Shown: one piece after another, positions 40,842 through 43,058 of the stretch
Position numbering within the stretch: position 1 is the first letter of the stretch
How the letters are laid out: every line of letters starts with the position of its first letter
Position numbers and translations under genes: made by a program
Assembly (NCBI RefSeq): GCF_000316685.1
Contig: NC_019680.1
Location: forward strand, 559,501-623,500
DNA length: 64,000 nucleotides
Origin: Synechococcus sp. PCC 6312
Lineage (GTDB): Bacteria > Cyanobacteriota > Cyanobacteriia > Thermosynechococcales > Thermosynechococcaceae
Direction: 5' to 3'
Notes under the pieces: model-generated
The model's database searches: none
Told to the model about the DNA's origin: nothing
The model's input: the letters and a program-made list of their open reading frames with translations, nothing else

Positions 40842-41282
40842 TTAAGAATTTCTTTATATTGTTACCCTAGCTGGTGATTTTTGGAAATGGATCAGCCCGT
40901 AGAAAGACGCAACTAAAGTTACTGAATCCTCATGAACTTTTATCACGAACTAATACGGAAGCTAACAAATCATCAGACTTTACCCATTGATCTGGGTGTT
41001 CTAGGCAACCAGTTTCCCAATTTCTTAGTTTAGGGGCTGTTAGCAAGAAGATAATCGCTGTTTATCAATCGTAAAAAACGTATTTTCAAGCAAAATGTTA
41101 TGTAATCCTATTAGTCCTAAGCAAAATATCGACTCTATATCTCTCTCTATTGCTCTGTATTTGCCTGTGGATCGGTGCAGATTGGCTTTTGATCATCATC
41201 GTGGTTTCAGCCCGCCGATTTGAAATAGTATCGGACATACTAATGACGATTCCCTTGCTTGCGCCCCTCAGCCAGACTCCCT
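40842..41282. other. AT-rich intergenic region, no gene seen
   Basis: About 440 bases with no convincing open frame, between the 78-residue gene (minus) and the ATPase-like gene (plus). It includes a short symmetrical CGTAAAAAACG near 41071 and several short T- and A-runs. Promoters for both flanking genes must lie here but no -35/-10 pair is convincing. Confidence 0.5.
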
Positions 41283-43058
41283 ATGGATTATCAGGTTCTT
41301 CACCACAGCCCCGGCCGACTCCGCCTCCATATCCACCGATTACGGCACGATCGGGCCTATGGACAAACCTTAGAGAATCTGGTGTTGGCCTTACCCCTAG
41401 TCTTAGGAGCTAGGTTAAATCGGTTGGCCGCATCGTTAGTGGTTCATTACTACACCCCAGGCCTGGCCCCTGGCAATGCTGAAGCTCTTGTGGCCAAATG
41501 CTTAGACCAAGCGGATACGGCCCATCCCCTAGTCCCCACGGAACCCTTTCCCACCCCTAGTGCCACAGCGATTCGGGATTGGGAAGCCGAAGTTGAAGCT
41601 GAACGTCCTCCAGAATCCGATTGGGAACGTTTGGGATTTCCCTTGATGAGCTTGACGTTGGCCCTATTGGCGGCTCCTTGGGAGATTCCCCCCTTAGTTG
41701 TGGGTATTGCGGTTTTGGCCGGGGCCTGGCCTTGGTTACAACGGACTCAAGCGAGGTGGATCGAAGAACAGTCTATTTCGGTGGATTTATTAGATACCCT
41801 CTGGCTGGGGTTACATACCTTGAATGGAGAATTCATCGCGCCAGCCTTGAAAACCTCGCTTGTCTCTGGACGAGCAGACTTACGAGATCGCCGGCGCGAA
41901 TTTAGCCCCTACCCCAGTTTTTTATTAAATTCCGATCAAGGTATCACCGTAGAGCGTGATCGAGAGCGTCTTAACTTAACGACCGTGGAACTTCAGCCAG
42001 GAGATCGGCTTTGGATTGAAGCTGGACAAATTATCCCCGTGGATGGGCCAATTGTGGCTGGGGTGGGAATGTTGGGCCTCGTCCATCAGGGACAAACACT
42101 CACCACCATTTCTGTAAAGCCAGAGCAATTTGTTTATGCCGGTTCGCAACTTTTGAGTGGGCAAATCCAAGTGGCCACAACTCGCGTCGGCTGGCAAACT
42201 CGCATTGGCCTGGTCACAGAACTTCGCCAAGCCGAACCCGTTTACGATAGCCAACTAGCCCAGGCCCAGGCCCAATTTGCCCATCAAGCCGTATTACCGA
42301 CCTTAGCCTTATCGGGATGTGTATTAGCGGCAACTGGCAATTTAGCCCCGGCTTTAGCCCCCTTACAACTGGATTTTGGCAGTGGCATTCAACTCTCCTT
42401 ACGCACCGTCTTTTTGTCTGCCCTGATTGCCGCAGCCCAGGCCGGGGTCTATGTTCCCAGTGCTGCACGTTTAGAATGCCTGGCCCATCTTCAGGTTTTA
42501 GTGGTGGATCAACGGGGCCTGGACATAACGCCTCTGGAAATGATGGAATTAGAATGCCTTGCGACCGATACTGGCTTAAAACTCTTCACCATCACTGGCC
42601 TAGCAGATGTGGACTGGCTCATGGAGTTAGATCAGACTAGGGGAATTGGAGTCATAACCGGGCCTGGGCAAGCCTTCGACTATTCACCTAATTGGTTAAG
42701 AATCTTCTGGGGGAGTCACACCATCCATCCCCAAGAACCAGAGATTGTTGTTCTTGAGCCGACGGTGAGAAAACTACACTGGGCGATAACAATTGCTCAC
42801 CAGGCCCTAGCTCGCACCTATCAAAATACCGCTTTAATTTCTCTACCCAATCTAATTATAGTGGCCGCAGGAGTCATGACCGGGTTATCCCCTGTTATGA
42901 ATGTTCTTACCAACAATGCCACGGCTTTTCTGGTGGAGTTTCTACCACAACCTCCCTTTTTGCCACCACCTGCAAGCAGGTCTCTCCTGCCATTACCTGG
43001 GCTGGGTACAGTTGCTCAGAATTTGCCCGAAAATGAGAAAAAGGTTAAATTATCGTAA
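41283..43058 (+). CDS. Degenerate P1B-type ATPase-like membrane protein (catalytic motifs lost)
   Basis: This 591-residue protein keeps the frame of a heavy-metal P-type ATPase but not its chemistry. Residues 1-60 are an HMA_2-type domain (HHSPGRLRLHIHRL) without CxxC. Helices follow at about 117-155. The actuator region at 235-300 is clear (VELQPGDRLWIEAGQIIPVDG) but HQGQ (268-271) stands where TGE belongs. The helix preceding the phosphorylation site lacks CPC. The site itself reads VVDQRGLDIT (407-416) for DKTGTLT: the Asp is kept, KTG is not. The nucleotide domain is much shortened. The C-terminal helix pair (LSPVMNVLTNNATAF) resembles the family's end. ATG 41283 is chosen; TTG 41259 is possible. 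Confidence 0.8.
   Translation: MDYQVLHHSPGRLRLHIHRLRHDRAYGQTLENLVLALPLVLGARLNRLAASLVVHYYTPGLAPGNAEALVAKCLDQADTAHPLVPTEPFPTPSATAIRDWEAEVEAERPPESDWERLGFPLMSLTLALLAAPWEIPPLVVGIAVLAGAWPWLQRTQARWIEEQSISVDLLDTLWLGLHTLNGEFIAPALKTSLVSGRADLRDRRREFSPYPSFLLNSDQGITVERDRERLNLTTVELQPGDRLWIEAGQIIPVDGPIVAGVGMLGLVHQGQTLTTISVKPEQFVYAGSQLLSGQIQVATTRVGWQTRIGLVTELRQAEPVYDSQLAQAQAQFAHQAVLPTLALSGCVLAATGNLAPALAPLQLDFGSGIQLSLRTVFLSALIAAAQAGVYVPSAARLECLAHLQVLVVDQRGLDITPLEMMELECLATDTGLKLFTITGLADVDWLMELDQTRGIGVITGPGQAFDYSPNWLRIFWGSHTIHPQEPEIVVLEPTVRKLHWAITIAHQALARTYQNTALISLPNLIIVAAGVMTGLSPVMNVLTNNATAFLVEFLPQPPFLPPPASRSLLPLPGLGTVAQNLPENEKKVKLS

Follow-up and report, generated by a model that had tools for sequence, protein, structure and literature searches.

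What becomes of an ion pump that keeps the architecture of its family and loses the motifs of its transport cycle? The question arises from one gene in the window, the stretch of 64,000 nucleotides of Synechococcus sp. PCC 6312 analysed here, from a genome of 3,720,499 bases in 2 contigs. The open frame occupies positions 41283-43058 of the plus strand, from an ATG at 41283 to a TAA at 43056-43058, and its 591 codons specify an intact protein of 591 amino acids. An alternative TTG start lies upstream at 41259, and the ATG is preferred because relatives begin at ATG in alignment. Neither sigma-70 promoters nor terminators were found in a scan of the gene's surroundings. An earlier note on this DNA had described an intact P1B-like frame without TGE and DKTGT, and this description holds, HQGQ and DQRGL standing at the two sites. 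The gene is divided as follows.

41283..43058, plus strand: pseudo-P1B-ATPase gene (591 aa and stop); ATG supported by alignment with relatives
41283..41462, plus strand: N-terminal HMA_2 domain, aa 1-60; H7, R12, R14 and R44 invariant; sub-cutoff match to Pfam PF19991
41619..41897, plus strand: membrane helices MA, MB, M1 and M2, aa 113-205; class-specific E134, W151, K190 and R197
41898..42242, plus strand: actuator-domain remnant, aa 206-320; fold of the CopA A domain (2hc8, Z 17)
42084..42101, plus strand: former TGE site, aa 268-273, now HQGQTL
42252..42440, plus strand: helices M3-M4, aa 324-386; Q329, M4 motif LDFGSGI; D364 invariant in both pseudo-pumps and intact pumps
42441..42764, plus strand: remnant of the P domain, aa 387-494; N domain lost
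42507..42521, plus strand: DQRGL in place of DKTGT, aa 409-413
42765..42941, plus strand: helices M5-M6, aa 495-553; N515, P522, N523, N545 and E552 as in intact pumps; N540 class-specific
42942..43055, plus strand: C-terminal tail, low model confidence

Domain searches and structure prediction address the fold. In NCBIfam the protein falls among the heavy-metal P-type ATPases, with scores far under the cut-offs; in Pfam its residues 222-351 match the actuator domain E1-E2_ATPase (7e-12), and no match to the Hydrolase domain is returned. At its N terminus the HMA_2 family (PF19991), which we take to be the published CoBaHMA domain, is matched weakly (21.9 bits against a cut-off of 30), and three relatives that were scanned give clear matches (32.9-48.1 bits). 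An AlphaFold2 model built on 33 sequences (pLDDT 82, pTM 0.73) has as its best PDB match Legionella CopA (7r0g, Z 23 over 455 residues). In this model MA/MB, M1-M6 and the A and P domains follow one another as in P1B enzymes; taken by itself, the A domain matches CopA 2hc8 with Z 17, and the P remnant aligns with only the P half of the CopA P/N structure 3a1d (124 of 272 residues). The comparison with CopA that the earlier note had proposed thus returns a P1B fold, and an unrelated fold is excluded because the model matches solved P1B ATPases; the protein is accordingly assigned, as modelled, to the P1B ATPase fold family. Like the CopA-type enzymes (Legionella 7r0g; Archaeoglobus 2hc8, 3a1d), it has MA, MB, M1-M6, an A domain and a Rossmann-like P remnant; unlike CopA, it has no N domain and none of DKTGT, TGE, TGD and GDGxND, and carries DFGSG in M4 where CopA has CPC.

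Related to it, too, are the intact HMA_2 pumps, such as C1:826-829k in its own genome and two in another (G007:C134:17688 and 23014), which form the sister clade in the tree and share the HMA_2 domain, the helices and D364, N523 and E552; unlike the pseudo-pump, they keep TGES, DKTGT, HP, TGD, GDGIND and the N domain. Losses were scored in 36 pseudo-pumps, the window protein included, and 45 related intact HMA_2 pumps. In the window protein the TGE site reads VHQGQTLT and the DKTGT site DQRGL, with the Asp retained, and TGD, GDGxND and the HP motif are all gone in the alignment with the 45 intact relatives. The homologue search confirmed the same losses elsewhere: DKTG is absent from all 36 pseudo-pumps and present in 45/45 intact pumps, TGE survives in 2/36 against 44/45, and the phospho-Asp is kept in 27/36. 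Since the median distance from the phospho-Asp to M5 is 111 residues in pseudo-pumps and 239 in intact relatives, the N domain is missing outright; the nucleotide domain had been called much shortened, which was right as to a reduction and understated its extent. The loss is graded, from a relative in which LTGE and DQTG are still there (L130) to the window protein, and in four relatives (L039, L141, L169, L170) the actuator domain is gone as well while the HMA_2 domain and helices are kept. Chance is excluded as the cause because the losses are common to the 36 proteins, which constitute a single clade.

The absence of CPC was considered as a further mark of a dead pump and rejected. The M4 motif of the window protein is LDFGSGI, and intact relatives, which read LDFGTG, LDLGTG or LDFSHG, likewise lack CPC; its absence is therefore a trait of the subfamily, and counting it among the losses, as had been done, was wrong.

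Judged from the motifs, a phosphorylation cycle would be impossible for the pseudo-pump by any known route. It could still work as a pump if the ATP-hydrolysing part were supplied in trans by a partner, and intact HMA_2 pumps do occur in every pseudo-pump genome checked and lie directly upstream of the pseudo-pump at two loci (L170, L172). Against this stand the loss of DKTG in 36/36 and of TGE in 34/36 proteins, and to our knowledge no P-type ATPase cycles with a P/N domain provided in trans, which makes such an arrangement very improbable.

Is the protein, then, simply decaying? Relatives were found by an alignment-based scan of genome contigs, a single-protein scan having given no matches, and most close relatives belong to Thermosynechococcus. 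In the tree the pseudo-pumps group as a single clade inside the intact HMA_2 pumps, with an SH-aLRT of 85, which rises to 100 once the intact pumps that diverge most and the two pseudo-pump rows of greatest length are dropped. Both groups share H7, R12 and R14 in the HMA_2 domain, D364 in M4, N515, P522 and N523 in M5, and N545 and E552 in M6. Six further residues (E134, W151, K190, R197, Q329 and N540) are specific to the pseudo-clade, each being found in at least 33 of the 36 proteins, differing in most intact pumps, and present without exception in the window protein. Selection was measured on nine Thermosynechococcus orthologues, about 44% identical to the window protein, which give an overall dN/dS of 0.110, against 0.07-0.11 for intact pumps of the same genomes. 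By region the values are 0.05-0.07 for the helices, 0.09 for HMA_2, 0.13 for the A domain, 0.20 for the P remnant and 0.27 for the tail. The gene is thus under purifying selection, which is concentrated on the membrane helices and the HMA_2 domain and is strongest on the helices.

Neutral erosion of the catalytic parts would fit the fast evolution of P remnant and tail, and the loss of the A domain in four relatives. The slow helices, the frames that remain open in nearly all genomes, and the existence of one old clade that spans many families and has invariant residues of its own argue against it, so that a decaying pseudogene lineage is hardly credible. As an account of the whole protein decay is refuted by dN/dS and clade-specific conservation, and it could hold for the soluble P remnant only. 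The earlier note's view that the gene is under selection and no fresh pseudogene is borne out (one clade, dN/dS 0.11, class-specific invariant residues), and the remaining domains, whose lack of conservation would have spoken for neutral decay, are conserved in homologues. That the gene encodes a conserved pseudo-pump is nearly certain, and the pseudo-pumps would constitute a protein family with a new job.

The conserved residues bear on what that job may be. As the main rival to the reading preferred below, the membrane core might serve as an ATP-independent cation conduit, a channel or facilitator (e.g. for Ca2+ leak or uptake) gated by HMA_2. At the cation-site positions, D364 in M4, N523 in M5 and N545/E552 in M6, the residues are those of intact pumps, the clade has gained polar or charged residues in or near the helices (K190, R197, Q329, N540), and the flux would be balanced by the Cax antiporter and P2-ATPase of the neighbourhoods described below. 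However, conservation of the cation-site residues may be structural, and the AlphaFold2 model is a static monomer; a conduit is considered unlikely. Retention of cation-site-like residues would also suit a sensor or signalling protein that binds metal in its membrane part or HMA_2 domain and relays this to a partner, as would an extra C-terminal helix-turn-helix-like segment that several relatives have in common with neighbouring HMA_2 proteins. But the CxxC metal motif is missing from the HMA_2 domain, the segment is absent from the window protein and no kinase or regulator gene consistently adjoins, so that sensing is an improbable role.

Gene neighbourhoods point in another direction. PCC 6312 and the T. 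elongatus BP-1 clade form intracellular amorphous CaCO3, and the PCC 6312 granule has a membrane or shell around it (PMC6087745). In this genome, as in Thermosynechococcus, the pseudo-pump stands alone with no calcium partner gene adjoining; elsewhere the genome carries a triple-GlyZip calcyanin (C1:3560567-3561610), a Cax-type Ca2+/H+ antiporter (C1:3480949) and the intact HMA_2 pump named above. In other cyanobacteria the pseudo-pump lies inside a conserved cluster with Cax (15/22 named loci), two intact HMA_2 pumps, a P2-type ATPase, an ArsA-like protein, and DUF1345, DUF5132 and MntP-like proteins. At five loci (L155, L158, L159, L160, L166), from Anabaena azotica, Fischerella muscicola, Westiellopsis, Chlorogloeopsis and Pelatocladus, a gene for a calcyanin-like GlyZip protein follows immediately past Cax; of these five proteins, the one from Pelatocladus alone fits the three-zipper profile over its whole length. 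In Calothrix sp. HK-06 the pseudo-pump has as its immediate downstream neighbour a beta-carbonic anhydrase (PF00484, 8e-49; L151:12012-12641, minus strand), and three related loci (L152, L153, L167) have proteins that correspond to it in size and place.

The ArsA-like protein occurs in a general form in 315/390 genomes, the only form in the genome of PCC 6312, so that a test of co-occurrence can draw only on the clustered form, whose copies share at least 55% identity. Some ArsA-like proteins (PF02374 and ArsA_HSP20) have an altered or missing Walker A and may be a second pseudo-ATPase; they include L223:1498-2586 (G000:C1:3359898-3360980) and the cluster copies L051:8821, L130:17236, L133:15366, L134:17311 and L136:3227, and the clustered copies adjoin or lie near the pseudo-pump.

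Other features of these loci were recorded in passing. A C-terminal segment, xLAKRLGVxSQxLTxxRxKPxFxxWTxARDPEGxAWxYD, occurs alike in pseudo-pumps, in some of the intact HMA_2 pumps and in small HMA_2 proteins that the cluster encodes (L130, L133, L136, L111, L154, L155, L158-L160, L163, L166), and one such segment gives a weak Xre-like HTH match. A 354-aa protein with its HMA_2 domain at the C terminus is encoded at L059:3426-4490 (G000:C1:2122425-2123489) and has a relative in a second genome (G270; L142:1707-2699). Two records titled Gracilibacteria and Clostridia (L163, JAAUUT010000071.1; L169, PUMD01000018.1) carry the cyanobacterial cluster or pseudo-pump and are probably mis-binned contigs.

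Calcyanin, the ccyA product, is described as a protein that marks cyanobacteria with intracellular ACC (Benzerara et al. 2022, as cited in PMC12836880 and PMC11773610). Many calcyanins have the same type of N-terminal HMA_2 domain as the pseudo-pump, and the genes co-occur and in some genomes adjoin; calcyanin differs in being an HMA_2 and glycine-zipper protein that is not P-type ATPase-like. Across 390 genomes of the class, calcyanin was found in 25 (four calls, all of family f2, being weak), the pseudo-pump in 21 and both in 16, leaving 9/25 calcyanin genomes without a pseudo-pump and 5/21 pseudo-pump genomes without a full triple-GlyZip calcyanin. By genus, triple-GlyZip calcyanin is present in 7/10 pseudo-pump genera. 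The association, strong yet incomplete, has a Fisher p of 1.9e-7 at genus level, 9e-9 without the weak calls and 3e-4 at family level, values that overstate the case because kinship is uncorrected. Some HMA_2 pump is present in 25/25 calcyanin genomes. Taken with the gene neighbourhoods, this co-occurrence makes a link between the pseudo-pump and calcium likely. The proposal that the protein is a metal sensor, chaperone or regulator was too broad, as the genomic context suggests calcium and probably CaCO3 handling, not general heavy-metal homeostasis.

A second dead pump was encountered in Microcystis. Only 1/26 Microcystis genomes (G271) has HMA_2 pumps, of which it has two, and no other Microcystis that the class search covered has a full calcyanin. 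The pump at L145:2911-5157 adjoins calcyanin and reads FAKTGT for FDKTGT and NGD for TGE; because of AKTGT and NGD it too is taken to be dead. It retains the N domain and falls outside the pseudo-pump clade, on a long branch whose position in the tree is poorly resolved; it is taken to be separately derived and unrelated to that clade.

The best explanation of the pseudo-P1B-ATPase, and on balance a probable one, is that it serves the cyanobacterial calcium and intracellular CaCO3 machinery as a membrane partner or scaffold without catalytic activity. A non-pumping partner is probable because the catalytic parts are lost, the membrane core is conserved and calcium and granule-marker genes are in its company. 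The ancestor would have been an intact HMA_2 (CoBaHMA-type) cation pump that lost its N domain and all catalytic motifs and was then kept for a new, ATP-independent job. Its partners in a calcium system would be intact HMA_2 pumps, calcyanin-like glycine-zipper proteins, the Ca2+/H+ antiporter and, in some cases, beta-carbonic anhydrase; this system probably produces intracellular amorphous calcium carbonate. In the weakest step of this scheme, the partner or scaffold would pair with intact HMA_2 pumps and/or dock calcyanin through HMA_2 contacts, and so set where or how much calcium accumulates. Counting against the explanation are the isolated position of the gene in PCC 6312 and in Thermosynechococcus, and the genomes that have calcyanin but no pseudo-pump, or a pseudo-pump but no full triple-GlyZip calcyanin. 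A more specific proposal, plausible yet held tentatively and leaning toward doubt, is that the pseudoenzyme works alongside calcyanin and HMA_2 pumps as a catalytically inactive membrane subunit devoted to the intracellular CaCO3 compartment of cyanobacteria, and that catalytic loss beside calcyanin took place at least twice.

Among kinases and proteases pseudoenzymes are familiar, but few have been described among P-type ATPases. In the literature searched dead P-type ATPases are rare, the nearest being TMEM94/ERMA, a human P-type-ATPase-like protein (PMC12134183; disputed by PMC13322241); papers on calcyanin and CoBaHMA lay outside the search and may mention the present protein. TMEM94/ERMA likewise has P-type architecture, no TGES and a questioned phosphorylation cycle, but it belongs to an unrelated subfamily with ten helices, keeps an N-like domain and the Asp, and has no tie to HMA_2 or calcyanin. 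For the intracellular CaCO3 trait the main gene described to date is that of calcyanin, and the candidate genes now comprise the pseudo-pump, HMA_2 pumps, Cax, the P2 ATPase, carbonic anhydrase and the ArsA-like protein. A conserved pseudo-pump tied to calcium genes, together with a second, separate case, would give a handle on the formation of intracellular CaCO3 granules.
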